From NCBI RefSeq assembly GCF_001411805.1, contig NZ_CP007214.1, positions 1 to 64,000 on the forward strand: DNA of 64,000 nucleotides. The letters are read 5' to 3'. Positions 35,721-55,900 of this stretch are shown here, piece by piece. The stretch comes from Burkholderia plantarii (GTDB lineage Bacteria > Pseudomonadota > Gammaproteobacteria > Burkholderiales > Burkholderiaceae). Position numbers and translations under genes: made by a program. The notes beneath the pieces were generated by a model that was not told the origin of the DNA, made no database searches, and saw nothing but the letters and a program-made list of their open reading frames with translations. Positions within the stretch are counted from its first letter, which is position 1. Each line of letters opens with the position of its first letter.

Positions 35721-36410
35721 TCAGCGATCCGCAGCCGGTGACATCGCGGCCGCGCGGTCGATCGCACCGTCGGGCGTCAAGATGCCCTGCATGACACGGT
35801 CGGCAGGCGACGCGGGCGTCGTGAACGGATCACGCCGCGCTGCTGCGCCGGCATCCTTGGCGTCGCTCGGGGCAGCGGCCGCGGTCTGGCTCAACACCGG
35901 CGGCAACACCGGCTTGAACGCGGCACGGATGCGCGCCTGGTTGTGGGCGATCGACCAGTGGCCAGGGTCGACGACGAGGTACACGTACTCCTGGTCATGC
36001 AGATCCGAATCCGCGTCCTGCCAGGGGGCGAACCAGACACGCAATTCACGGGGCGCCGTGCGTACCGGCGCGCCGCTGTCGAGGGCCCGGGGCAAGATTC
36101 CCGGGGCGGTGGCGCCGGCCATCGGCTTCGCCGAGCCCGAGGCGCGCTCGGCGGGGCTGTCGTCTGCGTAGCTCCCGAGCGTCAGGTTGGTGGTGGCGCC
36201 GCTGCCTGAGTGGACGCGCTGGTCGGGCAGGTTGTGGGCCATGGCGTTGGCGTAGATACCGGACATGCTGTTGCAGAGCACGCCGGCGGGCGCCTTGCAC
36301 GCGAACGACGAGCTGGCGTCGTAGCCCGTGAAGCTGCAGGCGGACAAGGCGAGCACGGCGGTACCAACAACGGTCGTGGCCCGCGCTGCGGCGAGGTAGG
36401 GAATGTCCAT
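35721..36410 (-). CDS. traV: TraV, outer-membrane lipoprotein of the core complex
   Basis: This is a 229-aa lipoprotein. The lipobox is LSAC, followed by the TraV signature of spaced cysteines, SFTGYDASSSFACKAPAGVLCNSM with a SGIYANA continuation. The rest is Pro/Ala-rich with a REL-RVWFAPWQDADSDLHDQ segment typical of TraV proteins from betaproteobacterial MPF-F systems. TraV is the VirB7-like partner of TraK and TraB in the outer-membrane core complex. ATG 36410 stands 2 bp after the dsbC stop. An upstream ATG lies inside dsbC. Confidence 0.9.
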   Translation of the reverse strand: MDIPYLAAARATTVVGTAVLALSACSFTGYDASSSFACKAPAGVLCNSMSGIYANAMAHNLPDQRVHSGSGATTNLTLGSYADDSPAERASGSAKPMAGATAPGILPRALDSGAPVRTAPRELRVWFAPWQDADSDLHDQEYVYLVVDPGHWSIAHNQARIRAAFKPVLPPVLSQTAAAAPSDAKDAGAAARRDPFTTPASPADRVMQGILTPDGAIDRAAAMSPAADR

Positions 36411-36412
36411 GG

Positions 36413-37342
36413 TCACTTCGCCCCCAGCCACTTGTCGATCGCATCGGCGCTCGCGGCGCCCGGCATCACGCGGCCGTCGAGGCTCACCAGGGACGGCGTG
36501 CCGTTGATACCCAGGCTCGCCGCGAGGGCTTCGTTCCGGTCGATCGGGTTCTCGCAGGACGCGAGCTTGGGCTCCACCCGCGCCGGTGCCGGCGTTGCCT
36601 TGCGCTGGCCTGCCGCGCCGGTCATGTCGGAGCCGTGGTCACGCATCCAGCGCGAAAGCGCGACCGGAAGCCATGCATGCCAGGCACCGAGGCGGTCGTC
36701 GGCACACCAGATGCTGATCGCGTGAGCGCGTGCGCGCGGATGGATCGACTCGAGCGGGTACAGGAACCGGTAGATCGTGATGTCCTTGAGCCCGGCAAGC
36801 TCCGCCTCGAGCGAGAGGCAGTACGGGCAGTCCGGATCGTCGAAGATCGCGACCTTTCGGCGGCCGTCGCCATGCACTTCCACGAACGCATCCTGCAGGC
36901 GGTCGGCCGGGAACCGGACCTTCTGCAACGCTTGCTCGAGCGGCACCGTCAGGTCCTGCTGCGTGACCATGTCGAAGAGATGACCGAACAAGAAGTAGCG
37001 GCCGGTGACGTCGGTGTAGGCCACCTTGCCGCCCATCACCACTTCATAGATGCCGGTCGAGGGGGTCGCCGCCACCTCGCGAAACTGCGTGGCCGGATAC
37101 CGGGCATGCAGCGATGCCTTGAGCGCCGCCACGCCCGGGTCGAGATTCGGGTCAGCGGGATTGACGGCCGGCGTGAGCGGTGCCGCGAGCGGGGCAAGCG
37201 GCGTGCTGGTGCCGGACGGGCCTGCGCCCGCTGGCGCGGTGGCGGGCGATGACGCGCGGTTGAGCGCGGTGGGTGCCGTCGTGCAGCCCCATGCCAGACA
37301 CGTGGTCATCAAGAGAGCGAAGGTGAGCTTGGCCTGTTTCAT
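36413..37342 (-). CDS. dsbC: DsbC-like thiol:disulfide isomerase lipoprotein
   Basis: This is a 309-aa exported protein with lipobox AWGC (Cys20), a long Pro/Ala linker, a DsbC-type dimerisation domain (GIYEVVMGGKVAYTDVTGRYF) and a thioredoxin domain with CPYC at 172-175 and cis-proline INGTPSLV. DsbC isomerases correct disulfides in cysteine-rich periplasmic proteins such as TraU, TraH and TraN. A dsbC gene near traV-traC is common in non-F MPF-F systems. Its start overlaps the stop of the DUF5131 gene (ATGA). Confidence 0.92.
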   Translation of the reverse strand: MKQAKLTFALLMTTCLAWGCTTAPTALNRASSPATAPAGAGPSGTSTPLAPLAAPLTPAVNPADPNLDPGVAALKASLHARYPATQFREVAATPSTGIYEVVMGGKVAYTDVTGRYFLFGHLFDMVTQQDLTVPLEQALQKVRFPADRLQDAFVEVHGDGRRKVAIFDDPDCPYCLSLEAELAGLKDITIYRFLYPLESIHPRARAHAISIWCADDRLGAWHAWLPVALSRWMRDHGSDMTGAAGQRKATPAPARVEPKLASCENPIDRNEALAASLGINGTPSLVSLDGRVMPGAASADAIDKWLGAK

Positions 37343-38307
37343 TGGAGCGTCGATGATGAAGAGAAGGGAGAGCGACGGCCGGCGGCGGTGCCTTGTGGCG
37401 CGGGGATGCGGGAAACCCGCGGAATGGGGAAGGCCTCATGCTTGACGCCATCGAGCGTGTTGCCCGCGTGGCGCTTGCCGACGCGTTGCATCCACACCCC
37501 ATCGGGGAAGCAATGAAACATCGTGCCGGCCGCGTAGATAATCTCGGGAGCGGGCCGCCATTCGCCCCACTGCTTGAAGAAGAACGGGATGTCGGCGGCT
37601 GCACACTGGTCTCGCAGCGCCCGAATCCAGTCCGGGTGAACCGACCGCGCCAGGAGGCCGGTTTCGCCGCCGGCAATGACCCAGTCCACGCCAATGCGGT
37701 AGCGGTCGAGCTGCGGCAGGTCGACCCCGTAGTGGTTCGGCCACGCGAGGTAGCGGCGCAGGTCGATGGCGCCCAGCATCGGCTCGATCGACAGGAAGCG
37801 AACGCTCGCGCGAATGGAGAGAAGCTTCGGGATGTCGCGGTCGGCTTCGGCCTGATCGACCACGGTCGCACCGAGCCACACGTTCTCGGGAATGCCCAAC
37901 GGGAACATGTCCTGGAGCATCGCGGCCGCGTTACCGATCCGCTTCGTGAGCAGCTGCCAGTCCAGGTGTGGCGTGGCCAGAATCAGGTCGGCCAGGTCAC
38001 GACGCCATTCGGCCGGTACCTCGTTGTCGAACACGTCGGACAGTGACGAACAGAACACCCGCCGGCGCCGGCCGTACTTGGCGAAAAACTTGTTGTGGGC
38101 GCGGTTCCATCGAACAGGAGCGGCCCATGTCGAGGCTGCAGTGCGCCGCCGCGGCGCGCCCGGCCCCCAGTTCTTGGCGGTGCCGCCACCGAAGCGACGG
38201 TTGCGGCGCTCGGCGTAGCAGTTCGCGCAGCCGGGGCTCACGGCCGTGCAGCCTTCCCACGCGCTGAATGTGGCGTCGGTCCAGCCGATGTCGGTTGTCT
38301 CGCTCAT
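37339..38307 (-). CDS. DUF5131 (phage Gp37/Gp68-like) three-Cys protein
   Basis: This 322-aa protein is of the DUF5131/Gp37-Gp68 family. The three-cysteine motif C-x6-C-x2-C lies at residues 20, 27 and 30 (GCTAVSPGCANCYAE), which could hold an iron-sulfur cluster as in radical-SAM-like enzymes. Later motifs include CSSLSDVFD, LDWQLLTKR, FLSIEPMLG and WVIAGGETG, conserved in this family of phages and plasmids. Its reaction is unknown to me. Family members often pair with a three-Cys-motif partner; here the neighbours are a cytosine methyltransferase and an HNH nuclease, all joined by ATGA or GTGA overlaps. It is not part of known F tra operons. Confidence 0.85.
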   Translation of the reverse strand: MSETTDIGWTDATFSAWEGCTAVSPGCANCYAERRNRRFGGGTAKNWGPGAPRRRTAASTWAAPVRWNRAHNKFFAKYGRRRRVFCSSLSDVFDNEVPAEWRRDLADLILATPHLDWQLLTKRIGNAAAMLQDMFPLGIPENVWLGATVVDQAEADRDIPKLLSIRASVRFLSIEPMLGAIDLRRYLAWPNHYGVDLPQLDRYRIGVDWVIAGGETGLLARSVHPDWIRALRDQCAAADIPFFFKQWGEWRPAPEIIYAAGTMFHCFPDGVWMQRVGKRHAGNTLDGVKHEAFPIPRVSRIPAPQGTAAGRRSPFSSSSTLQ

Positions 38308-40328
38308 GCCAGCCCTCCAGGCGAGGGGAGGGAAAGAGCAACAGCGACCGAGCGCACCCACACGGGTGTCGACGACAGCCGGAACGTCTCGCCGCTCTCG
38401 GCGAGCAGCAGCGTCGTGCCCATGACCTCGGCTATTGCCTCGGCGGCCTCGGGCGGTACCGCGTTGCCGATTCGCTCGCGCCACGCCTGATCGGATAGGC
38501 CGTCGAGTAAAAGGTATTCCTCCGGCTCGACGAGCGACTGCAGGACGGCGAGATCCAGCGTCGTGAAGGGTCGATGCCAGGTGCCATCGAGCGCGCGGAT
38601 GAACGCGACGAGCTTCGCGTTGAGTGCAGGCAATCTTGGATCGGCAACAGACCATCGGCCGTTGTCGTGGCCCGCAGCCGCCGAAACAGCGCCGCTGGGC
38701 TCGCTCCAACCGACCACGCCGTAATGTCCACCGGTCAGGTAGGCATCGCCGCGCTCGCGGCGCATGCCCGGGCGCGGATCGGCGACAGCGAAAGCACCCT
38801 GGCCGCTATCGCTGCGCGCGATGACCGTGCCTGCCGGCTCATCGAAGCCGGTGACGCGATACTTGCCTGCGCCCTCGAAGCAGCTGCCCGAGCGTGGGTC
38901 GGCTACCGCATAGGCGCCCTGGTCGTCGCCGCCGATGACGGTGCCGGCGTGGCCGGTCCACTCCGTCACCTTGTACTTGCTGAAAAGCGGGCCGGCCGGC
39001 GGTCGCGGGTCCGCGACACCACCACCGCCCGAGACCTTGAAATCGCCCGTCACCGTGCCGGAGTGCGTGTCCCACGGCGTGATCCGATAGGCGTTCTTGT
39101 GGTATTCAGCCGTGGCGCGCGGATCCTGAACGCACTGGCCGGTACCGTGCGCGCTGGTGACAGCGCCAGCGGCATCGGTCCACGGGATGATGCGAAATTC
39201 GTTGTTGTGCTTCGCCGGGCCAGCGTGGCGCGGATCGGCGACGCTGTAATAGCCCTGGCCCGGGGTCTGCTGGCCGGCGATCGTCCCGCTGTGTTCATCC
39301 CACGGGAGCACGCCGTAGGCGTGGCCGTCGTTCCACTTGGTGCTCTGCGCAAACCTCGCATCGGCCACGCTGAATGCGCCGTTCGTCGGCAGCGACTTGC
39401 CAGCGACGGTGCTGGCCGGCTCGGCCCAATCGACGACACCGAGGTGGCCGCCGCGACGCTCGGGAACGATGAGGTAGTCGCGGAGCTGGCCGTTCTCAAC
39501 TGCAAGTTTGTTCAGGCTTCGCCAATCGCTGCCAGCTTCGACGAAGGCCAAGCGCACCCAGGTCTTCCACTGCAACGAAGGGATGCGGTGCATGGGGCCG
39601 GCCGCCGGATCACCCGGCAGCGGCATGCGGCCGAGCAGGGTGCCCACACCCTGCAGGCGGTTCTGCTCCGGCTCGTACAGGAACGCCGGCACTTTCGCGG
39701 CGTGCCGAGCGACCTTCAGATAGCGCTTTCGGCTTTGTGCCATACCGCGCTTGGCGATCTTGCCGCAGTCGTGCGTCGTGTCGGCAGTGACATACCCGTA
39801 GTGCTGAAACAGTTGGTCGATCTGGCTGAGAAGGTGGCTGGCGCGCGTCGCGAGCCGCGGGACGTTCTCGAACACGATCAGCTCGACCGGGTCGTCTTTC
39901 CAGGCCTCGCACATGAGCCAGACGCAGCGCAGCGTCAGCTCATTGAGCGCCTGGTACTTCGGCGTGCGGCTGAGCGTCTCCGACAGCAGCCCCGACGCGC
40001 CCTTGCACGGCGACGAGATGAACACGCAATGCGGATGCTCGTGGCCGGCAGCGGCGCGCACGTCGGCGGCCGTCGCTTCCTTCCAGCCGGTCGGCGGCGG
40101 GGCGCCGTGGAATGCGGTGTACTGTTCGCGCGTGAACAGATCCATCACCGTACAATCAGTGCCGACGAGCGTGCGGAAATCGCGCGCCGCAGCCGGATCA
40201 TTGTCGATGCCGCCGATGCAGCGCCACGTCGCCGTCATCGCGCCGACGCGCGACACCGCCTTCTGGAACCCCTTGGCGCCCCCACCGAGTCCCGCGCAGA
40301 AGCTGAACACGTTGTAGATGCGGTTCAT
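38304..40328 (-). CDS. C5-cytosine DNA methyltransferase with internal repeats
   Basis: This 674-aa protein has the C5-methyltransferase motifs in order: motif I FCAGLGGGAKGF (10-21), motif IV SSPCKG (106-110, PC catalytic cysteine), motif VI FENV (153-156), motif VIII QSRKRY (198-203) and a C-terminal RIGNAVPP (motif X). Between VIII and X, where the target-recognition domain lies, residues about 296-565 hold seven repeats of the type W-x-E/D-x-x-G-T-V ... V-A-D-P-R. The protein probably methylates plasmid DNA. It could protect transferred DNA from restriction or mark self against the HNH nuclease upstream. ATG 40328 overlaps the HNH stop (ATGA). Confidence 0.88.
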   Translation of the reverse strand: MNRIYNVFSFCAGLGGGAKGFQKAVSRVGAMTATWRCIGGIDNDPAAARDFRTLVGTDCTVMDLFTREQYTAFHGAPPPTGWKEATAADVRAAAGHEHPHCVFISSPCKGASGLLSETLSRTPKYQALNELTLRCVWLMCEAWKDDPVELIVFENVPRLATRASHLLSQIDQLFQHYGYVTADTTHDCGKIAKRGMAQSRKRYLKVARHAAKVPAFLYEPEQNRLQGVGTLLGRMPLPGDPAAGPMHRIPSLQWKTWVRLAFVEAGSDWRSLNKLAVENGQLRDYLIVPERRGGHLGVVDWAEPASTVAGKSLPTNGAFSVADARFAQSTKWNDGHAYGVLPWDEHSGTIAGQQTPGQGYYSVADPRHAGPAKHNNEFRIIPWTDAAGAVTSAHGTGQCVQDPRATAEYHKNAYRITPWDTHSGTVTGDFKVSGGGGVADPRPPAGPLFSKYKVTEWTGHAGTVIGGDDQGAYAVADPRSGSCFEGAGKYRVTGFDEPAGTVIARSDSGQGAFAVADPRPGMRRERGDAYLTGGHYGVVGWSEPSGAVSAAAGHDNGRWSVADPRLPALNAKLVAFIRALDGTWHRPFTTLDLAVLQSLVEPEEYLLLDGLSDQAWRERIGNAVPPEAAEAIAEVMGTTLLLAESGETFRLSSTPVWVRSVAVALSLPSPGGLA
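38634..39443 (-). repeat. Seven protein-level repeats in the methyltransferase
   Basis: Units of about 35-50 residues end in VADAR, VADPR, VQDPR, VADPR, VADPR, VADPR and VADPR. Each is preceded by an aromatic-acidic W-x-E/D-x-x-G-T-V turn. They occupy the target-recognition region. The DNA repeats are diverged, so the duplication is old. Confidence 0.8.
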
Positions 40329-40771
40329 GCGGCCGCCCCCTCGCTGCTCGGTACAGCCGCTGCTCTGCCGGCGATCGCCGTCTTCTCGAAGTAGAAGACG
40401 ACGGGCACACCGGTCTCCACGATCAGGCCATACTGCTTTGCGATGCGGTAGATAGGGTGGTAAGCATTCAACGAGTTGATGTGGCCGGCCAGCCAAGCTC
40501 GCCATTGCTCGATTGACATCTGCCCCTTGCTGATATTGCAGGGAGGGCAAGCCGGGTTGTGGTTCTCAATGACGTCGCGCTCGGGATGTCGGGCGGGGCC
40601 GCTGACGAGCTTCCACTGGCCGGCAGCGGTCCGCTTCGTCTCAACCGCACGCACTACCGGCTCGACGTGGTCCGCATGCCATCGATCAGCGAGCATCCCG
40701 CCACAGTAGGCGCAGCGCCCGTCGTATTTCAGACGGAGCTGCTGGCGTTGGGCGCTCGTGAGGCGGCTCAC
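40325..40771 (-). CDS. HNH endonuclease
   Basis: This 148-aa protein (GTG start) has a zinc-binding HNH nuclease core: CAYC at about 20-23, then WHADHVEPV with the catalytic histidines, then NHNPACPPCN with the second cysteine pair. The C-terminal 60 residues are a separate helical segment. It overlaps the methyltransferase start by ATGA and the upstream gene by GTGA. It could be the nuclease of a restriction or self/non-self system with that methyltransferase, or an accessory DNA-processing nuclease. The activity is well supported, the role is inferred. Confidence 0.88.
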   Translation of the reverse strand: MSRLTSAQRQQLRLKYDGRCAYCGGMLADRWHADHVEPVVRAVETKRTAAGQWKLVSGPARHPERDVIENHNPACPPCNISKGQMSIEQWRAWLAGHINSLNAYHPIYRIAKQYGLIVETGVPVVFYFEKTAIAGRAAAVPSSEGAAA

Positions 40772-41865
40772 GCTTTGATTCCCGCGAACAAGCGACCAGC
40801 GGCCTGGAAGAACCCTGCGGAACGCGTGTGGCGCGGCTCCGCGACGTGATCCTGACGGGTTACCTTCGAAGCGGCTTCACGCAATTCCCTTGCGTGCCGA
40901 TGCGCGCGCGCCAGCACGGATGCACACTCCACCATCAACGTGCCGTTTTCGTTACGGCTCTCGACCTCATTGCGGCTTGCCCATCCGCGCACGACGTCGA
41001 GATCCACGCCGGTCTGGTGAGCTGCATGGCCCGCCGTGAGCCAGTTCACGGCGTCACCGGAGAGGCCGGATTGCGATTCGCCCCGCGCAGTGTCGCCAGC
41101 GTCGTGTGCTGGCGCCGGACGGATCACGAGCTGGACATGCTCGTACAAATAGGCCTTGCACTTCTTCGCTTGCTCGTTGGGAAGGCCGTTGACTCTGACG
41201 GAGTGTCTGTCGGTTTGGATTTCGATCTGACTGCCGAGCGTCGTGTCGGTGGCGAGCTTCATCATCTTCCCCTCCACTGCGACCGGCGGCTCCATCTCGG
41301 ACGCTGGAGATATCTGCGCCCCGTGATACGAGAGCATCATCGAGATGATGGCGACGTCGATCGGGTCGCCCTTGTCGGCGTGCGAACGGAGCATGGCCGA
41401 GAGTTCGTCTGCCGAGGCAGTCCACCAGCCTCCGCGCCCGGCCGCGCGGCCCTGCGCCATCTTCGTCTTCATGAGATGCGCGCACATGTCGACTGCGGCA
41501 TCATCGAATGCCGCCGCGACGATCACGGGACTCACTTCCGGCGCGTGCGCGCTCGCCTGGGCGTCGGGATCCGCGACTTCCAAGTCCAGACGGCGCGCCG
41601 CGTGCGCTACGTATTCCGTGAAGCCCGCTTGAAAGGGTGGGTTGGTGGCAAACCGCGCTTCGGCGATGGCCCTCATCTTACGAAGTTCCCCCTGCACGAT
41701 CTCTCTGGAGCCGAGCCACCCCACAAGCGCTGCGCCCATCTCCGGCTGCGCATATTTACCGTCCACGTTGCGCTCGAACCTTGGTTCGAGTCCGGCGCGC
41801 TGCGCGCAACGTTGCATCGCCGCCTCGAACGCAGCCACTGTCGTACCGTTCGCTTCTTCATTCAT
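40768..41865 (-). CDS. Unknown protein heading the methyltransferase cassette
   Basis: This 365-aa protein is not recognised. A central stretch, GGWWTASADELSAMLRSHADKGDPIDVAIISMML, has the feel of phage-encoded accessory proteins. Near 290-330 a helix-turn-helix-like segment is possible (NWLTAGHAAHQTGVDLDVV, then RGWASRNEVESRN). No signal peptide or membrane span is present, so it is probably cytoplasmic. ATG 41865 is preceded by GGAGG and lies inside the traB 3' end (8-bp overlap). It is the first gene of the four-gene insert between traB and dsbC. Confidence 0.6.
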   Translation of the reverse strand: MNEEANGTTVAAFEAAMQRCAQRAGLEPRFERNVDGKYAQPEMGAALVGWLGSREIVQGELRKMRAIAEARFATNPPFQAGFTEYVAHAARRLDLEVADPDAQASAHAPEVSPVIVAAAFDDAAVDMCAHLMKTKMAQGRAAGRGGWWTASADELSAMLRSHADKGDPIDVAIISMMLSYHGAQISPASEMEPPVAVEGKMMKLATDTTLGSQIEIQTDRHSVRVNGLPNEQAKKCKAYLYEHVQLVIRPAPAHDAGDTARGESQSGLSGDAVNWLTAGHAAHQTGVDLDVVRGWASRNEVESRNENGTLMVECASVLARAHRHARELREAASKVTRQDHVAEPRHTRSAGFFQAAGRLFAGIKA

Positions 41866-43195
41866 CGGAGTAGCCTCCATCGGTTTCGCGGCCGCCGTTG
41901 GCAAGGCCGTCGTTGATATCGCTGACATCGGAGAGGGCGCCGTTGTATTCCGCGCCTTTCATCACGGCGAACTCGACGACGCGGCCGCCATCGGTTTCAA
42001 TCACCGGAAAGAGTTTTTCGGCAGCCCGGATGTAGTACTGCTTGAGGGAGTCCGCGCCCTGCGAGACCCCGCTGCCGATTGCGGAACGACCAACCTGGCT
42101 TGGATTGACGATCGACGTCGTGCCGAGGGCCGTGGTGTTCAACGTGTTGGCGGATTGGCTGAACGCTTGGCCGATCCCGGACGAGATCCCGGCCAACACC
42201 GACATGGCGAGCGCGGAGCCCGACTTCGAGACGAGGCGGCCCCGAACCCCTTCCTTGCCGTCCTCGCCCATCACGGTGCCCTTGATCTCCATCTCGATGG
42301 TCCGGCCGTTCTTCAAGATGCAGTCGAGCGTCTGGCCGTGCATGATCGTGCGCTCGCTCGAGACGTCTCCGTAGGCAGAGGTCAAGATGCGGCATCCCGT
42401 GATGTCGAGCTTCCGGGCGTTCGGCAAATTGGCGAGATCGAGCACCTCGAGGAAGACGTGCAGCGGGTCGTGCTGCGCCTCCCCACCGGTCGGCGCATCA
42501 ACGCCGTTCATCATGAATACCCGCACAAACGCCGTGGCGGGGATGAACGTCACGCCCTTTTTGCCCTTTGCGTTCAGGCAATCCTGCTGAGCTTGCTTGG
42601 CTTGGTCGATGGGCAACGACGAGAAACGCGGATCGACGCAATCGTCGCCGGCCTTCTTGGGCGTCTCGAAGCTGATGATGTCAAGCTTCGGCGCCGGCAC
42701 CGGCGCGTCGCCTGCAACACCTCGAGCGGCCTGGCCGAACGGCGGGTTGAGGATCGCCCCGGACTTCGCCTGCTGCCCGTTGAGTGGAATCGGCTTGTTG
42801 AGGAGCGCGCGATCGCCTGCCGTAGAAGACGCCGCAGCTGGAGCGCTTGCCGCGCTCGCCGGGCCGGCCTTCTTCTCATCGTCGAACTGCTTCTGCAGGT
42901 CAGCTTGCGCCTGGGCGAGCTTCTTCAGTTTTTCCGTCGCGTCATCCGCCTTGCCATTCGCGGCGGCGAGCTGCTTCTTCAGGTCCGCAACCTGCGCCTC
43001 GGACTGCGCACGCCAGGCGTTCTTGTCGTTCTGGTCCCCGACGTGTGCGAACGGGACTGCCGTGGTCGTCTGCTGCACCCCGTTGCCGTGGCGCGTGAAG
43101 AGAAGACCGACGATGAAAAGGGCCGCCAGAAGACCCATGGCCGCCCAGCTGATGATCTTTTGACGCTTCTTGTTTACCTCGTTCGGGTCAGTCAT
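41858..43195 (-). CDS. traB: TraB, VirB10-type core-complex protein
   Basis: This 445-aa bitopic protein has a cytoplasmic N-terminus, one span at about 15-32, a coiled-coil region (60-110) and an Ala-rich linker. The C-terminal VirB10/TraB beta-barrel domain has FIPATAFVRVFMMNGVDAPTGG, CRILTSAYGDVSSERT, LDCILKNG and KGTVMGEDGKEGVRGRLVSK. TraB spans the envelope, connecting inner-membrane ATPases to the TraK/TraV outer ring. ATG 43195 overlaps the end of traK. Confidence 0.94.
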   Translation of the reverse strand: MTDPNEVNKKRQKIISWAAMGLLAALFIVGLLFTRHGNGVQQTTTAVPFAHVGDQNDKNAWRAQSEAQVADLKKQLAAANGKADDATEKLKKLAQAQADLQKQFDDEKKAGPASAASAPAAASSTAGDRALLNKPIPLNGQQAKSGAILNPPFGQAARGVAGDAPVPAPKLDIISFETPKKAGDDCVDPRFSSLPIDQAKQAQQDCLNAKGKKGVTFIPATAFVRVFMMNGVDAPTGGEAQHDPLHVFLEVLDLANLPNARKLDITGCRILTSAYGDVSSERTIMHGQTLDCILKNGRTIEMEIKGTVMGEDGKEGVRGRLVSKSGSALAMSVLAGISSGIGQAFSQSANTLNTTALGTTSIVNPSQVGRSAIGSGVSQGADSLKQYYIRAAEKLFPVIETDGGRVVEFAVMKGAEYNGALSDVSDINDGLANGGRETDGGYSDE

Positions 43196-43928
43196 GCTCG
43201 CCTCGCTCCCGAACCACGTAGACAATCGTGCTGGCGCCGGCCGGCAGACTGGTATCCTCGATCGCGACGGCGAGCACCCCGGGCGCGTACAGTTCACGCT
43301 CATCGAGCGTCAGGTCGTTGTGCGAGGTGTTCGCGAGGGTGTACGTTTCGCCCACAAGATCGCCGTCGCTGTATTCGCGGACACGAGTAAGCGTCGCCTC
43401 CTTCCAGAGCGGCACGGCTGTCTCTACCGATGTGTACGCGACCTGCGGCGCGGACTGCGCCCCGGACATGGCCAGCATCAGCAACTTCACGTGACGCTGG
43501 AAAGCGGATGCACGAAGGGCGCGGCTCGTGCGCGACGCCGGCGGCTCGATGCGAACATCTTCGGCCGGCCGCGGTCCCGGCACGAGCGTGAGGCGGTAGC
43601 TCACGCCGGCGTCGTCGAAGACGAAGAGCGTGATGGTTTCGTTGAGCGCACTCGGGTTGGATGGCTTGAACCAGAACTGGCTGCCGGCCTGCGTCCAGGA
43701 GAGCGAGCCAGGCACGGTCGGCACCACCTTGGTGATTTGCCGGCCGCCCGACATCGTGAGGAGGTTGTACTCCGCCGCGGACACGGCAACCTGTTGGGCC
43801 TGGCGATCCGCGCCCTTGACCAACGAAATCGCCTTGGCCGGCCCGGCGACGAGCAGCGCAGCGAGCGGCACGACGAGCGGGAACACTAGCCGCGCGATGC
43901 CGCGGCAACGGAGGTGGGATGCTTTCAT
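43188..43928 (-). CDS. traK: TraK, VirB9-like secretin-type core protein
   Basis: This 246-aa exported protein has a signal peptide cut after AKA near residue 33. The N-terminal TraK domain includes NLLTMSGGRQITKVVPTVPG, and the C-terminal domain ends in ELYAPGVLAVAIE and AGASTIVYVV. TraK is the VirB9 homologue in the outer-membrane core, bound by TraV and TraB. ATG 43928 overlaps the traE stop (ATGA). A much longer open frame upstream lies inside traE and is not used. Confidence 0.93.
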   Translation of the reverse strand: MKASHLRCRGIARLVFPLVVPLAALLVAGPAKAISLVKGADRQAQQVAVSAAEYNLLTMSGGRQITKVVPTVPGSLSWTQAGSQFWFKPSNPSALNETITLFVFDDAGVSYRLTLVPGPRPAEDVRIEPPASRTSRALRASAFQRHVKLLMLAMSGAQSAPQVAYTSVETAVPLWKEATLTRVREYSDGDLVGETYTLANTSHNDLTLDERELYAPGVLAVAIEDTSLPAGASTIVYVVRERGEHD

Positions 43929-44536
43929 GATGCCTTCTGCGCGGGAGGTACGAGAGGTTCGATGCCCTTCGTGCCCCGCTGCGCTTCGCGGATATCGAGG
44001 AGCGTGAGGCGCCCGAACAGCGAGATGTCGAAATAGACGACGAAGGCTTTTTGCTCGGTGCTCGTGAGCTTGCCGGAGATGTAGGTGGTGATCGTTGCCG
44101 GAAACTTGACCGACATGCTGCGGAGGTCGACGTCGGCCGATCCTGCGGGCTCGGCGACGCTGGTGACGCCGTCGTGCTTGAGCTGGAGCGCGTCGGCGTC
44201 CCATTGCGTCTTCAACTCGGCGCGACGCCCATCGTTGACCATGGACAGGAGGATTCGCTCGTTGCTTTCGACAGTATTGGGCGACACGCTCTTGGCCAGG
44301 GAGAGCACGTAGGCGGCCTGATCGGCGAGATACTCCTCGTTCGCGTAGCGCGCGCCGATCACGTACGTACCACGCACGGCCGGGGGCATGATCACGACGC
44401 GCTGCGTCACGACCAACCATGCGCAGACGAGCGCGATCACCACGCTCGACGTTCCGTTGACGAGCAGGAGCTTCCTGAAGAACCGGTTGTCGGCGCGCAG
44501 TGCATCTCGCGATTTGGCGGCCTTTTCTGGCGTCAT
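43925..44536 (-). CDS. traE: TraE, VirB5/VirB8-like pilus assembly protein
   Basis: This 203-aa bitopic protein has one N-terminal span at about 28-46 and a periplasmic TraE domain (YLADQAAYVLSLAKSVSPNTV, MSVKFPATITTYISGKLTSTEQKAFVVYF). TraE is needed for F pilus assembly and is structurally VirB8-like. It lies 4 bp after traL and is coupled to traK. Confidence 0.93.
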   Translation of the reverse strand: MTPEKAAKSRDALRADNRFFRKLLLVNGTSSVVIALVCAWLVVTQRVVIMPPAVRGTYVIGARYANEEYLADQAAYVLSLAKSVSPNTVESNERILLSMVNDGRRAELKTQWDADALQLKHDGVTSVAEPAGSADVDLRSMSVKFPATITTYISGKLTSTEQKAFVVYFDISLFGRLTLLDIREAQRGTKGIEPLVPPAQKAS

Positions 44537-44540
44537 GACG

Positions 44541-44828
44541 TCACCCGTTCAATTCACGGATCGCGGAGGGAGGCAGCGCCTTGAGCGTGGGCTGACCGAA
44601 GACCCAATACCCGATGTGGGCAGACATGCCGGGGTGTCGGCCCGAACTGAACTTCTGCCAACCGTAGGCGAGTGCGACGCCGACCGTGACGCCGAGCAGC
44701 ACGTGCCCGAGCATGATTCCACCCACGATGCCGACCATGCCGATGAACGCGACGTCCTTTCGGAAAAAGAGGAATTTCTCCGGATCGTCGAGTCGGCTCG
44801 GGATGTAATGGTTGAGATCTTCTGACAT
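44541..44828 (-). CDS. traL: TraL, pilus assembly protein
   Basis: This 95-aa VirB3-like protein has the TraL start HYIPSRLDDPEKFLFF and a hydrophobic hairpin at about 27-58, then PGMSAHIGYWVFGQP with the usual aromatic end. It assists pilin assembly at the inner membrane. ATG 44828 follows traA by 11 bp. The order traA-L-E-K-B is as in F. Confidence 0.92.
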   Translation of the reverse strand: MSEDLNHYIPSRLDDPEKFLFFRKDVAFIGMVGIVGGIMLGHVLLGVTVGVALAYGWQKFSSGRHPGMSAHIGYWVFGQPTLKALPPSAIRELNG

Positions 44829-44839
44829 GGCAGCGCGGC

Positions 44840-45229
44840 TTAGATCGTCGCCGTGTATTCGCCGTCGATGATGCCGACGATGAGACTCGAGACAATGCCG
44901 ATGCCCGACGGCTGCACGAACGCCCACGTGTCCTTCTTGAACAACGCCATGGCCGTCCCGAAAATGACGCCCCCGAGTGCAAGGATCTTGGCGGGATTTC
45001 CCTTGGCCCAACCTTCGACCGTGGTCGAAGCTTGAGCGTATTCAGCACCGTCCGTTCCGAGCGCGATATGGGCGAACAGAAGAAGGCTCACCGTCGCGAA
45101 TGCGATGGAAGCCGCGAGGATGTGTTGACGGATCTTCGGATCGCCGAGGCTCGCCTGGATGCGATCCTCGAGCGCAATGAGGCGAAGGGCGAAACGGATT
45201 TCGAGCTGCGATACGGCGTTGGCGATCAT
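44840..45229 (-). CDS. traA: TraA propilin (F-type)
   Basis: This is a 129-aa propilin with a long leader, as in F TraA. Probable cleavage after AQA (65-67) would leave a mature pilin of about 62 residues with two hydrophobic segments: PAKILALGGVIFGTAMAL and PSGIGIVSSLIVGIIDG around KKDTW. The N-terminal 30 residues of the leader are hydrophilic. GAGG precedes ATG 45229. In F, LepB cleaves, TraQ inserts and TraX acetylates the pilin. No traX or traQ is visible here, while an S26 peptidase is encoded at 32242. Confidence 0.88.
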   Translation of the reverse strand: MIANAVSQLEIRFALRLIALEDRIQASLGDPKIRQHILAASIAFATVSLLLFAHIALGTDGAEYAQASTTVEGWAKGNPAKILALGGVIFGTAMALFKKDTWAFVQPSGIGIVSSLIVGIIDGEYTATI

Positions 45230-45275
45230 GTGGTCCTCGCGCGGTGTGGGCTGTTGGCCAGGTACTGTTCTTGTA

Positions 45276-45306
45276 GTGCTCGTGCCGTTACGGGCGGCAC
45301 GAGCAC
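45276..45306. repeat. Perfect 12-bp hairpin upstream of traA
   Basis: GTGCTCGTGCCG (45276-45287) and CGGCACGAGCAC (45295-45306) flank a 7-nt loop, 47 bp before the traA start. No T-run follows on the minus strand. It could be an operator, a transcription pause, or an mRNA structure that gives traA a stable 5' end for high pilin expression. Confidence 0.65.
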
Positions 45307-45417
45307 GGTTCAGGGGAGAGAAATTCGTAAAAAAAATCCGAAACTTCACAATCAATTTGCAGTCCTTACTTAATAATTTCCTCCTATTGGAAATGACGAT
45401 TTTGTTAGATGCGCCTT

Positions 45418-45810
45418 TTATCGATCCGCGAAGCGTTGCGGCCCGAACTTGTCGTCAGGAAGCACGGCACACCGCGGCATTGCTGCGGCAGAATGCGCAT
45501 GGCGAACGCGACGCACCACCTTCGTGCCACGTTTGCGCGCTTTGCTGCGATGGGGCACCGCCGGCGGTGTAGTGACAGCTACTGCCGCCGCACGGGCGCT
45601 CGAATAGACCGGCGCGGGAGCGCGCTGCGGAATCGGATCAGGCAGGTGTTTGATCGTCGGTTCGGGGCAGGTTGCGGGCGAGCAAAAGACATACTGGCCA
45701 GCGCCGGGCGCGCCGATCTCGGTCACCGCGTAGTCCGGGAGGCGCGGCGAAGCAGCGCAGGGGTGGGCAAAAGCAGCGGCAACAGCGCAAAGCATTGCGG
45801 CGAGCTTCAT
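45418..45810 (-). CDS. Small exported protein upstream of traA, unknown
   Basis: This 130-aa protein has a signal peptide cut after CAA near residue 20. The mature chain has two cysteines (FCSPATCPEP), a proline-rich middle (about 45-85) and a very basic C-terminal part (RSKARKRGTKVVRRVRHAH). It is not recognised. It starts in an ATGA overlap with the transglycosylase stop and is followed by 188 bp of AT-rich leader before traA. It probably acts in the periplasm in the transfer apparatus. Confidence 0.6.
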   Translation of the reverse strand: MKLAAMLCAVAAAFAHPCAASPRLPDYAVTEIGAPGAGQYVFCSPATCPEPTIKHLPDPIPQRAPAPVYSSARAAAVAVTTPPAVPHRSKARKRGTKVVRRVRHAHSAAAMPRCAVLPDDKFGPQRFADR

Positions 45811-46358
45811 TTAGCGCCCCCGTTCGCCGAGATCGGGGCAGCGGACTGTGCGCGGTATCCAGCGTAGGCGCGCTGAACAAGCCGCACGTACTTGGCTTGC
45901 GCGGCGAGGTTCGAGGAAGCGGGGCCGGCGTTGTAGCAGCCCACGGCGGCCCACGTGGCCCCCTTGCTGCGGATGCAGCTGGCGAGCACCCAAGCGCTCA
46001 GCTTCAAGTTGACGCAGGGATCGAGCAGGTCCTGGCGGGTCACGCCATAGGAGACGAGTTCGGGTAGGTGGATATCGTTGATCTGCGCCGCGCCCCAAGC
46101 TCGATGGCCGCCGGACAGCTTCGGGCCAACTGCCCCGGGCAACCCGCGCGACTCAACCCACGTGATTGCGCGGAGGAGGTCAGGATCCAGCTGATAGAGT
46201 GCGGCCGCGTCAACGAAGGGGTCGCCGTGGCAGGCCGACGCGGCTGCCGGGACTGCGAACATCGCGGCGAGCACCACGGCACCGATGGCTATCACCGGTC
46301 GTTTCGAACGTTCCGTTATGTTAAGGCCGCGACGCAGGCGACCCGCATGGCCGACCAT
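45807..46358 (-). CDS. Lytic transglycosylase, VirB1/gene X-like
   Basis: This 183-aa exported protein has a signal peptide following a basic start and a soluble-lytic-transglycosylase (SLT) domain: catalytic glutamate in AITWVESRG, then GAAQINDIHL and the C-terminal CYNAGP. VirB1-type enzymes open peptidoglycan locally so the secretion channel can pass. F carries a similar gene (orf169) beside oriT at the head of its transfer region, matching this position. The start is uncertain: ATG 46358 has only a weak ribosome-binding site. Confidence 0.88.
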   Translation of the reverse strand: MVGHAGRLRRGLNITERSKRPVIAIGAVVLAAMFAVPAAASACHGDPFVDAAALYQLDPDLLRAITWVESRGLPGAVGPKLSGGHRAWGAAQINDIHLPELVSYGVTRQDLLDPCVNLKLSAWVLASCIRSKGATWAAVGCYNAGPASSNLAAQAKYVRLVQRAYAGYRAQSAAPISANGGAK

Positions 46359-46806
46359 CCGCGACAACTGCAGGGAATAAAAAGGGTAGCGCGAGAAGTC
46401 TGCGCTGCGCACTACCAGGCCGCCTGCTTCCGAGCATCGAGAGCATATGAGTTTCAGGCGGGACGCGAGAGAGAGGCTCGCGCCGAGAGACGTCGTCCGC
46501 GGCGGTTGAGAGTCGCGGCGTTCAAAATGAGAGAAGATGGATTGGGAAAGAAAAACAATCAGCACGCCTCCCGAACGGGCGTGCGTCGACTCGCGTGGCA
46601 GTTCCTCGGCAGAAGAGGAGCCGCAAACCGATGCGTGATCGAATCGGAATCCGTAAGCAACGGACGTAGTTAATGAGTCAATCCCATACGATTGACGTAC
46701 AATACCCTCAGCCACGAGTGGTCTCTCTCAGCTTTAGCCAGCTATGTACTTGTGGTCAGGACACGCCGGGAGCTGCAACTCTCAGCGTGTCCACCGCTAC
46801 CGCGTT
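46359..46806. other. Non-coding stretch at the head of the tra operon
   Basis: No gene is seen in about 450 bp. It holds a minus-strand terminator (46545-46584), an inverted repeat TCAATC-CCATAC-GATTGA (46678-46695) and an imperfect hairpin with 8-bp outer arms (GGACACGC 46759-46766, GCGTGTCC 46785-46792). The tra promoter should lie between 46358 and 46545, but I find no clear -35/-10 pair. By analogy with F, where orf169 adjoins oriT, this area is one of two candidates for oriT. Confidence 0.45.
46545..46584 (-). terminator. Terminator before the tra operon
   Basis: On the minus strand GCACGCC, a 9-nt loop and GGCGTGC are followed by TGATTGTTTTTCTTT. It would end transcripts of the small gene at 46807-47100 and insulate the tra operon. 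Confidence 0.6.
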
Positions 46807-47100
46807 TTATAAATACACACTAAAACTTTTCACTCCGGGAAATTGATCTCGGATGAACGAGGCAAGAAAATTCAACCCCTTCCAATTGCGCGCTCCGCCT
46901 CGCGCTGCATTCAATAGGTACTTCTTTTTCCCGTCCGCGGATGAGACCTGTAGTTGCCAGCAGAACTCCCCGTCGATCCGCGTGCGAACCGCTGACAGGT
47001 GGTAGGTCGGCTCTGCCTCTAGCAGGACCGTAAGCTCCCGTGACGTTAGCCCTTGCATCTTCCTTCTCGATCTGGAACGCAAAGGGCTAAGTATCGCCAT
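46807..47100 (-). CDS. Small basic protein upstream of the tra operon, unknown
   Basis: This 97-aa basic protein (possibly 83 aa from an internal ATG, MQGLTSREL) is not recognised with confidence. It has a compact alpha/beta look: LTSRELTVLLEAEPTYHL, a strand pair RIDGEFCWQLQVSS, a basic KKKYLLNAARGG segment and a C-terminal helix. Size, charge and position beside the transglycosylase would suit a relaxosome accessory protein or a transfer regulator. That is inference. Confidence 0.55.
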   Translation of the reverse strand: MAILSPLRSRSRRKMQGLTSRELTVLLEAEPTYHLSAVRTRIDGEFCWQLQVSSADGKKKYLLNAARGGARNWKGLNFLASFIRDQFPGVKSFSVYL

Positions 47101-47417
47101 GCCACCTCAATAGTAAATCTCCGCGCAACATATCGCGGATTTATTCTTACAAATCTTTGTTGTGATTATACAGATCGAAGATTTGTTGTCAAAGAACTTC
47201 TTTCAGCGACATGCGCAGCATCGACCAGACAATAGAATCGGACTAATTTATTATGCACATTAATAGCTATTGACAATCATGCTGAAACTTGGAATCGCTG
47301 CCGAGACCTGCCCTCGGTCTCGCGCCAAGGCTCGCAACGGGCAGCAGCAGATTTCGGACCAGTATAGCCAGATGAATCGGATTGCATAACTAGCAAGACT
47401 TCTAGACTTTCGTTGCT
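47101..47417. other. AT-rich non-coding stretch with inverted repeats
   Basis: About 320 bp without a gene, clearly AT-richer than the backbone. Inverted repeats: AAATC-T-CCGCG (47115-47125) with CGCGGATTT (47134-47142), and CAAATCTT (47150-47157) with AAGATTTG (47178-47185). Such composition and repeats fit an oriT or regulatory region, but I cannot identify a nic sequence. It also marks the border between backbone and the nitrilase insert. Confidence 0.4.
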
Positions 47418-48311
47418 TTAAGCGGGATAGTCGCGCGCGAATGTTGCCGTAAGGAACGAAAGCACCGCATTGATCCGCGGCAACCGTTGGAAGTTGACGA
47501 GGGTACTCATCCACACCTCTCGCCTGACGTTGATCTCGTCGAGCAATACCGGGTGTAGTCCAAATCGTTCGGGGCGAGAGAACGCCGGCAGCATCACGAG
47601 ACCCGCGCCTGCAGCTGCCGCAAACATCTGAGAAAGCATGCTGCTCGAGTGAAACGAGTAGGTCGGGTTGGCGACCCCTTCCTCAAGCCATCGGACGATA
47701 TCCAGCTGGATCAACTCGTCGATATAGCCTGCAAATTGGTGTTTTGAAAGGTCCGCGACAGACGCGGGCGTCCCACATCGAGCAAAGTAGTCGTGGCTCC
47801 CGTACAGATGACAGCCGAATTCGCCGATTTTCGTTGCATGTAGATTTTTGCCGGGAGGCTGGAAGAAGCCTAAAAAAACGTCGGCCTCCCGGTGTGTCAC
47901 ACGGACGTCACGGGAGGAAGTCACCAGCTCGATGACGATGTCAGGCGTGGTTCGCTTAAAACGCGCGAATTGCTCGCTGAGGTACAGTGAGGCGATCCCT
48001 TCCATCGTTGCGATGCGGACGATCCCTGAGGGGCTGACCTCGCCCCCTCCTAACTGGCTCGCAGCGGCAAGAACGCTCGCCTCCATCGAAGCAACATGCT
48101 CGAATATCAATCGACCATGTGCGTTTACGCGGTACCCGGTATGGTCCCTCTCGAAAAGCGGTGTTCCCATGTCATGCTCAAGCGCGCTGATCCGTCGACC
48201 TGCCGTGGCATGATCAATGCCGAGCAGGCGCCCCGCTTGCGACAAGCTGCCGGTGCGTGCGAGCACTAGGAACACGCGTAGATGGTTCCAGTTCAATCGA
48301 TTGATGTTCAC
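47418..48311 (-). CDS. LysR-type transcriptional regulator
   Basis: This is a 297-aa LysR-family regulator. The N-terminal winged helix-turn-helix covers residues 4-65 (LRVFLVLARTGSLSQAGRLLGIDHATAGRRISALE). The rest is a periplasmic-binding-like effector domain with DVFLGFFQPP and a C-terminal AAGAGLVMLPAF. I prefer GTG 48311, which follows GGAGAG and gives the normal LysR length. An upstream ATG (48350) would place the operator-like inverted repeat inside the gene. It is divergent from the symporter-nitrilase genes and probably controls them and itself. Confidence 0.9.
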   Translation of the reverse strand: MNINRLNWNHLRVFLVLARTGSLSQAGRLLGIDHATAGRRISALEHDMGTPLFERDHTGYRVNAHGRLIFEHVASMEASVLAAASQLGGGEVSPSGIVRIATMEGIASLYLSEQFARFKRTTPDIVIELVTSSRDVRVTHREADVFLGFFQPPGKNLHATKIGEFGCHLYGSHDYFARCGTPASVADLSKHQFAGYIDELIQLDIVRWLEEGVANPTYSFHSSSMLSQMFAAAAGAGLVMLPAFSRPERFGLHPVLLDEINVRREVWMSTLVNFQRLPRINAVLSFLTATFARDYPA

Positions 48312-52941: not shown

Positions 52942-55900
52942 ATGACCTCATCGACTCAGCTTCAACCGAAGCCCACCGACGTCTTCGTCTCGCCGCTCGA
53001 CGACATTCATCCTGCTGACATCGATGCCAACCTGAAGGCGCTCGATCGATGGCTCGTGGATGTCAGCGGGGGCGTGCTCACGTTGGATCGCGTCGAAACC
53101 ATCGCGCGTAACGCTCCCGTCCTCGCGAATATCTTCGCTGCGGTCGACCTGGTCGCCGACATCCGCGCGATGATCGACCACGGCGACCGGCGGATCGACC
53201 TGTTCGATTGGGTGAATCTCGGACTGGACCTGATCGGCGTGATCCCGATTCCGATGGGGACCGCTCAGGTCCGCATGGGCGCGCGGCCCATGCTCAAGCT
53301 GCTTCGCGAGGAAATCGCGAAGAACGGCAAGGCCATGGGCGACGCCGCGATGCAGATGGTGCGCGATGGCATCATCACCGCGATCGTCGCCAGCCTGCAG
53401 GCGCGCTACGCCGGTGAAATCGAGACGTTCCTGACCGCGCTGCGCGCCGAGTTGGCTTCCGTGCTGAATGCCGCCGCCGACTATGTCGGCGAGGTGATGA
53501 ACGGCCTGGCCGACCTGTTCGCACACGCGGCCGGCGAACCCTTGGACTACGGCAAGGACATCGACCAGGCTGGCGAGCACCTGAGTGCGGCCGGGCGCAA
53601 CGTCCTCTACAAACCGGGTGAAGCGTTCGACAACATCGGGGCGCTGTTTTACGACGCGGCCAGGGTGGTCGGGAAGGGGACGGTCAACACCGCGACGTCC
53701 GTAGCGAAGTACATCGACTCGGATGCAAGCGCGAAGCTCATGAGCGTCGCCAGTTCGCTGCGGCGGAAGGTGCCAACCGTGCAACAGGCGGTGCGTGGCC
53801 TCGATGGCAACGAAGTGGGCAAGATCGGTTGGCTGATCCTCGTGTGCGAGGAAGGCGTGATGCGCTGGCGCAAGGCCCATCCCACGCCGCAGGCGGTAGG
53901 CGTCCCGTCGAAGGGTACGACGAAAGCGGAGGAACGGCGCGGACAGGGGCCGACCGAGACGCTCGGCGCGACGGCGCCGGCGAAACATCCCGGGCCGAAT
54001 TGCTGCAATTCGACCGGGCCGGTGCCCACGCCTGCCGCCAGTTCGCCGGGCTCGATCGGCTATGCCTTGGGCGACGAGCGGATCGACCACGACGATTTCG
54101 TGATCGACGGGCCGCTGCCGATTGCCTGGACACGAACCTACCGCTCGTTCTTCGATGCGAACGACGAGCAGGGCGAGATCGGGCCGCGGTGGGTCACGCC
54201 GTACACGGTGCGCTTCGACGTGCAGGCGACGAAGCTCGTCTATCACGACTCGGAAGGCCGCAGCCTCGATTACCCCTTGCTGGCAGTGGGCGGCGCCCAC
54301 GATGACCGCGCCGAAAACCTGACGTTGCTGCGCGTCGATGAAACCTGGATAACGCTGACTCGTGGCCACGACGTGCTCGAGGCGTATGAGCGCCATGGCG
54401 ACCGATATCGCCTCGCCTTCATCAAGGATCGGGCAGGCAATCAGGTCACGGCCGAATACGATGGGGCGGGGCGCCTCCACCGCCTGCTCGTGCCGCATCG
54501 ACAGGTCGCGTTCAAACACGACGCTCGTGGGCGAATCGCCGAGGTATTCGAGCACGACGCGGATGGCGAGCGCGTCGGGCGGCTCGCGGCATACGAGTAT
54601 GACGCCGCGGGCGATCTGGTTGCGGCCAGCGACCGGTACGGCAATCGACGTGACTATCGGTACCGTCACCACCTGCTGACGCGCTATACCGACCGCACCG
54701 GGCGCGGCATGAACCTGGAATGGGACGGGACGGATCCGAAAGCGCGCTGCGTGCGCGAGTACCGGGACGACGGCAGCGACGAGGTTCGGCTCGCCTGGCA
54801 CCCGAGCTTCCGGATGGTCGCGATCACTGACGCGCTCGGGGAGGTCACCCGACACTACTACACCATCAAGGGCTATTCGTTCCGGGTCATTCACCCGGAC
54901 GGCAGCGAGGAGTGGCTCTATCGCGACCGCAACGACAAGCTGGTGCAGTACATCCATCGCGACGGCGGCACCGAGTTCTTCGACTACGACGCTCGCGGCA
55001 ACCTGACCCGTCATCAGCGCGTGGACGGCTCGGTAATCGAGATGGCCTACGATCAACAGGACCAGTTGGTCCAGACGATCGACCCGCACGGCCATGCCTG
55101 GGCTCAGGAATACGACGCCGCCGGCAATGTCGTTCTGGCGAGAGATCCGCTTGGGCACGAGACGAAGTACCAGTACAACGGCCAAGGGCTCCCGACAGCG
55201 GTGATCGACGCGAAGGGCGGGAAGAAGTCGCTCGAGTACGACGAGAGCGGCCGCCTGCTGTCGTTCCGGGACTGCTCGGGGAAGACGACGCACTGGACCT
55301 ACGATGCGGCCGGCCGGCTCGTGGAGATGCGAGATCCGGCCGGCACTACGACAAGCTACCGGTACGGCGCAAACGGGCAGCTGGAGGAGATCGTGTCGCC
55401 CGCTGGCGCCGAGCGCATTCAGCACGACGCGGAGGGCCGGCTTCTCGCCGCCACCGATCCCCTGCAGCGCACGACCCGCTACGCCTATGACGCAGGCGGG
55501 CGTGTCATCACGCGCGTTGACGCGCTCGGCCAGCGCCTCGCCTACGGCTACGATCGCCTGGGCCGCCTGGTGCGGCTGACCGATGCGAACGATGCGCCCT
55601 ACACGTTCCGCTACGATCCGGCCGGCCAGCTGGCCGAGGAGACGGAATTCGACGGGAAGACGCGCCTGTATCGGTACGACGAGGCGAGCGGCCGTATGGC
55701 GTCAATCGACGACGCGGGGCGCGTCACCGAACTCGGACAGGACCGCGGCGGGCGGATCTCGCGGCGCAGCTGCGGCGATGACACCGAACAGTACGCCTAC
55801 GACGCGAGCGGCCGCTTGGTCGAGGCCAGCAACCGGTATAGCCGGATCCAGCGCTTCTTCGACCCGGTCGGCAACCTCGTTCGCGAGCATCACGCCTACG

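Follow-up and report, generated by a model that had tools for sequence, protein, structure and literature searches.

A putatively phage-derived accessory island in the F-type tra operon of Burkholderia plantarii, possibly directed against restriction

A stretch of 64,000 nucleotides from the rice bacterium Burkholderia plantarii (hereafter the window), which lies on contig 3 (NZ_CP007214.1) of an 8.08-Mb genome in three contigs and is part of a conjugative plasmid, carries an F-type tra operon in which four genes stand between traB and dsbC. On the minus strand the order is traB, open reading frame 1 (ORF1), an HNH endonuclease gene, a DNA cytosine-C5 methyltransferase gene, a gene for a DUF5131 protein and dsbC. 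The reading that is tentatively favoured here, with a little less than even confidence, is that these four genes form an accessory island derived from phages, most likely directed against restriction and related barriers to transfer.

Four overlapping genes between traB and dsbC

An earlier note, made from the letters of the window, had described four genes with overlapping junctions at this place, which is borne out by the ORF coordinates and by the Pfam families (Table 1). The stop codon of traB (41860-41858) and the ATG of ORF1 (41865) give an overlap of 8 bp. The ORF1 stop (40770-40768) overlaps the GTG of the HNH gene (40771) in a GTGA, and ATGA junctions follow between the HNH stop (40327-40325) and the methyltransferase ATG (40328), between the methyltransferase stop (38306-38304) and the DUF5131 ATG (38307), and between the DUF5131 stop (37341-37339) and the dsbC ATG (37342). 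With regard to the starts, the family scans used slightly different ones, giving 724 amino acids (aa) for the methyltransferase, 307 aa for DUF5131 and 386 aa for ORF1, and the longer ORF-finder readings of the methyltransferase (from 40550) and of DUF5131 (from 38709) are upstream extensions; the shorter starts given here for these two genes match those annotated on the sister plasmid. The coordinates of traB are those of its longest reading, its annotated relative on that plasmid being 445 aa long. The identity of the flanking traK, traB, dsbC, traV and traC was confirmed via Pfam and NCBIfam.

Table 1. Coordinates of the island, its neighbours and the features discussed in the text
Feature	Position in the window	Strand	Match or remark
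traB (TrbI/VirB10 family), upstream neighbour	41858..43303	-	PF03743 E 5.3e-32
ORF1, 365 aa, no assigned function	40768..41865	-	phrog_8298/16645-type middle domain
HNH endonuclease, 148 aa, GTG start	40325..40771	-	PF01844 E 3.2e-5; phrog_2118 E 1.2e-42
Orphan DNA cytosine-C5 methyltransferase, 674 aa	38304..40328	-	PF00145 E 3e-8; phrog_116 E 3.4e-44; phrog_32684 E 3.8e-104
Methyltransferase array, seven units, residues 291-562, between motifs VIII and IX	38643..39458	-
Array unit 4, 114 bp	39012..39125	-	missing in frame in NZ_CP066800.1
DUF5131 (phage Gp37/Gp68) protein, 322 aa, predicted radical-SAM-like fold	37339..38307	-	PF07505 E 2.3e-81
DUF5131 three-Cys motif C20-x6-C27-x2-C30	38218..38250	-	invariant in 61 sequences
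dsbC, downstream neighbour, 4-bp overlap with DUF5131	36413..37342	-	PF13098, PF10411
Promoter-like site TTGACA-16-TATAAT ahead of the tra operon	47165..47192	-	12/12 consensus bases, pattern match

The ratio of nonsynonymous to synonymous substitution rates (dN/dS) against relatives is 0.08-0.15 for the methyltransferase, HNH and DUF5131 genes and 0.27-0.32 for ORF1; the HNH values were taken from the loci L003 and L047, since the HNH gene of the sister plasmid is identical to that of the window. These low values, which point to purifying selection, indicate that the four ORFs behave as real, protein-constrained genes. A consensus scan of 36000-47500 returned 47192-47165 as the sole sigma-70-like match on the minus strand, as well as minus-strand terminator-like patterns, for instance at 47139-47120, directly after the promoter-like site, and at 40412-40399, inside the HNH gene, in numbers little above those obtained with shuffles. 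As the frames overlap traB and dsbC and one promoter-like site lies upstream of the operon, the island is likely to be co-expressed with the tra genes, in line with the co-expression with the pilus genes proposed in the earlier note.

The island proteins and the modular methyltransferase

The methyltransferase (METHYLTRANSFERASE) has the motifs of a C5-methyltransferase in place, namely what we take to be motifs IV (SPCKG, residue 106), VI (FENVP, 153), VIII (QSRKR, 198), IX (around 586) and X (RIGNAVPP, 619). A single C5-methyltransferase core was found. Its catalytic residues C108, E154, R200 and N622 do not vary across an alignment of 58 sequences, which were chosen out of 120 proteins and 80 viral loci. 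Motif IV (window 40002-40010) reads PCK, with Lys109 invariant in the 58 relatives; the usual form in C5-methyltransferases is PCQ. An assignment as a CmoX carboxymethyltransferase was rejected on the motifs, residues 105-108 being SSPC and motif X holding Asn622. CmoX is marked by an SPPC motif and by R350 (PMC12783734; this and the other papers are cited for the parts of their text that were available), to which N622 would be equivalent via N374 of M.MpeI.

Between motif VIII at residue 198 and motif IX at 586 lie the seven units of the array, which are 32 to 46 residues long in the window and 27 to 47 across all proteins compared. The enzyme of NZ_CP066800.1 has the same units with few substitutions, and its unit 4 is cleanly gone in frame. 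The comparison covered 208 methyltransferases (that of the window, 7 named records, 120 relatives and 80 viral ones, with 7 exact copies), among which 4 units were counted in 2 proteins (one a cut-off or broken record), 5 in 57, 6 in 144, 7 in 3 and 8 in 2. At 62% identity the units fall into 47 types, and these occur in 64 different orders. The first three slots of the array have two alleles each, and all eight combinations occur. Furthermore, unit order differs in 1,751 of the 2,123 protein pairs with a core identity of at least 93%, a set selected with a short-word and length prefilter in which identical cores were excluded and relatedness was ignored. Judged from these alignments, module exchange is outpacing core divergence, and the units would be the parts of the enzyme that recognise DNA.

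The predicted model of the DUF5131 protein appears to match a radical S-adenosylmethionine (SAM)-like fold, barrel included, and can be likened to radical SAM enzymes such as spore photoproduct lyase and lipoyl synthase. The three cysteines that the earlier note had recognised are invariant in an alignment of the window protein with 60 of 120 others, but they are spaced C-x6-C-x2-C. The canonical radical SAM motif, whose three cysteines bind an iron-sulfur cluster, is CX3CX2C. The NCBIfam model radical SAM mobile pair A matches the protein with E 4.2e-11 and 42.7 bits, against a cut-off of 355. TcmP, a possible DUF5131 partner, had no match among the neighbours scanned.

The HNH protein shows C20, C23, W31, H32, D34, H35, N70, C75, C78, N79 and K82 as conserved residues, and its membership of the family is supported by C20, C23, H32, D34, H35, N70, C75, C78 and N79, which are kept in at least 96 of 97-98 rows. 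A PDB sequence search with this protein gave one weak match (E 0.4). With regard to ORF1, residues 131-206 (numbered on the 386-aa reading) form a middle domain of the phrog_8298/16645 kind, a weak MerR-like stretch (E 0.0015) lies near the C-terminus, and 12 relatives were found at E<=0.001; it may be an accessory or regulatory protein. The chromosome of the same genome carries two ORF1-like stretches with internal stop codons (G000:C2:3311207-3312148 and C2:977625-978416).

Recurrence in Burkholderia and beyond

Of the plasmid records, p1 from Burkholderia plantarii KACC 18964 (NZ_CP066800.1, L002) comes closest; this conjugative plasmid, typed MOBF and MPF_F, has an identical gene order and is the sole one covering at least 80% of the region among the matches listed (294 matching records). 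A generally occurring four-gene system is ruled out for the plasmid collection and for 65 Burkholderia genomes, where the full set was found in these two B. plantarii plasmids only. Measured in bins of 250 bp, divergence between the two is 24% at 41500 and 6% at 41250, but only 0-0.4% from 41000 down to 39750, a stretch that holds the HNH gene and the start of the methyltransferase gene. Such very uneven divergence across 39750-41750 suggests recent recombination inside the island.

Other Burkholderia plasmids carry variations of the block in the same slot. Four B. glumae plasmids have ORF1, sometimes HNH, once a different gene of 306 aa, and DUF5131, without the methyltransferase; where the 306-aa gene survives as remnants between DUF5131 and the HNH or ORF1 before it, these are marked by deletions. 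The order in the plasmids from B. cenocepacia and B. ambifaria is traB-ORF1-HNH-Lar-like-hyp2-dsbC, with neither the methyltransferase nor DUF5131. The Lar-like call was made on the B. cenocepacia gene (PF14354 E 1.4e-5, 25.7 bits; phrog_599 E 2.9e-6) and on that of the genome G017 (PF14354 E 2.3e-5, 25.0 bits). The Lar-like protein and ORF1 have a phrog_8298 domain in common, and neither ORF1 nor the genes from the sister plasmids matched a PADLOC model.

Among the 65 Burkholderia genomes searched, that of the window included, DUF5131 was found in 26, the methyltransferase in 10 (E<=1e-30), HNH in 10, traB in 11 and ORF1 in 13, some of these matches being partial. All 11 HNH places lie within F-type tra operons, in two slots: six between traB and dsbC (the window, G011, G023, G026, G037 and G061) and five between traF and traH (G007, where traH was seen in L384, G017, G031 and, twice, G048). 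HNH is present in 10 of the 11 traB-bearing genomes and in none of the 54 others (hypergeometric 6e-11, relatedness ignored). Furthermore, HNH precedes DUF5131 on the same strand in 10 of the 10 tra blocks read that hold both (the window, L002, L003, L004, L356-L360 and L362, where DUF5131 is a fragment), and in G061 the two lie about 13 kb apart within one tra operon (L361). In one operon of G048 the traF-traH block consists of a traB end piece, ORF1, HNH, a Lar-like gene, hyp2 and DUF5131. As this end piece is 72% identical to the B. plantarii type, and the operon's own traB 38%, the block has apparently left a traB slot for a different operon and taken a piece of traB along.

The HNH relatives extend well beyond Burkholderia, with 2,693 plasmid records, of which 2,443 were typed conjugative, and with relatives in phages. 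One E. coli F-like plasmid carries an HNH gene, next to a hypothetical one, between trbC and traN. An 820-bp probe of this pair was found with at least 80% coverage in 309 of 5,426 E. coli genomes, and all 10 full-length matches among those listed are annotated trbC-hypothetical-HNH-traN. Another relative (L381 9243-9617) lies between traU and trbC in a distant F-type operon from another genus of the family. For two plasmids of IncHI type, the 5-7 kb read on either side of the HNH relative contain no annotated tra gene. In a Klebsiella IncHI1B plasmid, a DNA cytosine methyltransferase gene (L371 9380-10399) lies downstream of the HNH relative, some 4 kb away. Scanning named species genomes with patterns gave 27 HNH loci, of which 4 lay in tra operons, all four in Burkholderia genomes already counted; five of the scanned loci, these four included, duplicate genomes already read and were counted once.

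The history of these genes was examined with quick trees. A single clade of the E. coli and the Burkholderia traB-slot HNH proteins was rejected by the approximately unbiased (AU) test (p 3.2e-7, or 6.7e-6 when the traF-traH ones were added), so the E. coli F-like HNH is a separate recruitment. Conversely, one clade was allowed for the two Burkholderia slots, both for HNH (AU p 0.34; 51 of 98 rows, with near copies and long branches left out) and for DUF5131 (AU p 0.14; 47 chosen rows, the first tree having 95), and two independent recruitments of either gene at these slots are therefore unsupported. Given that HNH lies mostly outside tra elsewhere and that the joint clade was rejected, a phage-type HNH has been taken up by F-type tra operons more than once. 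In the literature searched, no function was found for this recurrent HNH, and the available part of a comparison of F operons (PMC5102898) contains the word HNH 0 times.

The methyltransferase and DUF5131 also meet outside tra operons. At E<=0.001, 5,754 methyltransferase relatives were found among 8,000 candidates scored, and the family includes 36 phage records (31 of them from Pseudomonas) and 166 plasmid records, pWW0 among them. At 22 of 80 viral methyltransferase loci, with flanks of up to 6 kb, there is a DUF5131 match, downstream on the same strand in 21 and as an edge piece in two. In four Burkholderia genomes the two genes lie about 3-6 kb apart, and three of these DUF5131 matches have internal stop codons. 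HNH and DUF5131 are close together in 2 of 80 viral HNH loci. The plasmid probably took the methyltransferase and DUF5131 genes from temperate phages.

These results bear on the earlier interpretation, which appears half right. A recurring island is real and an anti-restriction role plausible, but the statement that none of the four genes belongs to the F transfer set does not hold for ORF1 and HNH, which are regular guests of tra: several Burkholderia tra operons have the pair as an established component, and the E. coli F-like plasmids place HNH relatives between trbC and traN. The earlier note had also proposed looking for the gene set elsewhere and had named a lack of co-occurrence among its refuting conditions. 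This condition did not arise, in that HNH and DUF5131 do come together again at a second tra slot and DUF5131 does accompany part of the viral methyltransferases, but the complete set was confined to the two B. plantarii plasmids and viral DUF5131 loci hardly ever have the methyltransferase nearby. By sequence comparison, the four-gene set is one local version of a recurring block.

Elsewhere, the window encodes a trimeric autotransporter adhesin with YadA head, stalk and anchor domains (9062-12754), a zeta-toxin domain protein of 698 aa with a KfrB domain (15754-17850) and an RHS-repeat protein of 1560 aa (52942-57624).

A proposed protection timed to transfer and competing explanations

If the island acts against restriction, switching on of tra would lead to synthesis of the methyltransferase, which would methylate several short target sequences in the plasmid, with at least one array unit reading each of them, so that a variety of restriction enzymes in the recipient could no longer attack the outgoing strand. 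The set of protected sequences would change whenever array units are gained, lost or exchanged. In addition, DUF5131 would probably add or alter a nucleic-acid modification via radical chemistry, and HNH would probably cut competing or incoming DNA. The anti-restriction role fits the sister plasmids, which hold a Lar-like gene at the place of the methyltransferase; its Lar-like domain (PF14354) is fused to a phrog_8298 domain, and the island of the window has no such gene.

Elements of this scheme have been described in other systems. Arrays of several target recognition domains in one polypeptide, as in Bacillus phages, and orphan modifiers expressed solely on cell exit are both anti-restriction strategies of mobile elements (PMC12707154). 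The methyltransferases of SPbeta-type Bacillus subtilis phages (M.phi3T, SPR) resemble that of the window in having one core with several recognizing units in a variable region, in being orphan and mobile and in their anti-restriction use (PMC12707154). Unlike these, the enzymes compared here have 4-8 related units that are swapped, gained or lost between close relatives, and that of the window is encoded in a tra operon. Methyltransferases of the donor or the plasmid can protect conjugating DNA (PMC11602122), and the leading regions of plasmids are enriched in orphan methyltransferases, while a notable share of anti-defence genes lies in the lagging regions as well (PMC11541004). The leading-region islands likewise cluster genes of anti-restriction type and orphan methyltransferases on conjugative plasmids (PMC11541004), but the block of the window lies inside the tra operon, and is therefore expected to act in the donor; neither the tra operon nor HNH is mentioned in the available part of that paper.

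Several observations weigh against an anti-restriction island of this kind. In an anti-CRISPR test, anti-defence genes away from the leading strand region were less effective (PMC11541004). The similarity to Lar falls short of the Pfam cut-off of 28.6 bits, and the remaining tra blocks read lack the methyltransferase. Tra genes were found within the fetched flanks at 0 of 23 non-Burkholderia HNH loci, and 1 of 5 HNH loci from other genera of the family, in the stretches read, has them. The methyltransferase lies near DUF5131 at 1 of 80 viral DUF5131 loci (the best 80 of 596 by short patterns, with almost no Burkholderia prophages among them), a reciprocal count that rules out an obligate pair and confines the link with the methyltransferase to part of the DUF5131 family. 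As to the array itself, its position and its T-[ILV] (TL) dyads are reminiscent of target-recognizing domains. Such a dyad is expected in each target-recognizing module (PMC2413257), but it was found in 655 of 1,194 units, namely in 536 of 778 middle, 118 of 208 first and 1 of 208 last ones. In sequence, no relationship of the array to either of the two phi3T methyltransferases could be detected, the unit profile scoring -1.4 bits on phi3T_150 and BLASTP giving weak core pieces only. AlphaFold gave the array no confident structure (mean pLDDT, the predicted local distance difference test, 50.8, with the array under 40), and PDB sequence searches with the methyltransferase, its array and DUF5131 returned no match within the limits used. 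In view of the partial dyad, the missing phi3T kinship and the missing structural support, the enzyme is put only as probably working like a multispecific methyltransferase.

Among the other explanations, a module for defence or plasmid competition that makes use of tra expression is unlikely; it would be made up of HNH, DUF5131 and their companions and would attack the DNA of phages or rival plasmids, with the methyltransferase marking self where present. Among the PADLOC models for candidate defence systems, DUF5131 does match PDC-M41B (E 2.8e-44) and PDC-M30B (E 2e-43). HNH matches PtuB1 weakly (E 0.0006), retains its catalytic residues and has joined F-type tra operons at least twice. In PDC-M30/M41 systems, however, a partner gene A stands beside the B gene, and for the remaining three genes no match to an A model was found at E<=0.1. 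Moreover, the methyltransferase is missing from the other HNH-bearing tra blocks read and thus cannot be a general self-mark. The same separation bears on a plasmid type II restriction-modification pair of HNH and methyltransferase, which the adjoining genes might suggest and which is very improbable. HNH occurs without the methyltransferase in other tra operons read, 79 of 80 viral methyltransferase loci have no HNH relative nearby and the remaining one has an HNH piece. Such a pair was rejected because the two genes travel apart and are not kept together, which a toxic cognate nuclease would hardly allow.

A distinctly unlikely explanation is that of passive phage cargo, in which a homing-type HNH brought phage genes along into gaps where the tra operon tolerates insertion, with no benefit for transfer. 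It would account for the phage relatives of HNH, the methyltransferase and DUF5131, for slots that vary between plasmids, for the block that moved with a traB fragment and for the common gene loss in B. glumae (L003-L005). Conversely, the fixed order, the overlapping frames, the low dN/dS and the close association of HNH with traB-bearing genomes speak against mere cargo. A more far-reaching version of the preferred anti-restriction reading, rather doubtful as it stands, is a counter-restriction island timed to transfer, in which F-type tra operons have repeatedly recruited a phage HNH, accompanied in Burkholderia by the radical-SAM-fold DUF5131 protein and an exchangeable middle gene, either Lar-like or methyltransferase. 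In B. plantarii this middle gene would encode a multispecific methyltransferase that changes its specificity through the shuffling of small units, and the donor would thereby give its outgoing DNA a variable set of methyl patterns.

Plasmid anti-defence genes have been described mainly in the leading region, where they act in the recipient (PMC11541004). A block in the tra operon would instead act in the donor before transfer, its timing being given by expression with the pilus genes. Additionally, a methyltransferase family in which small units reassort among near-identical cores would offer a natural test bed for how such units specify methylation targets.

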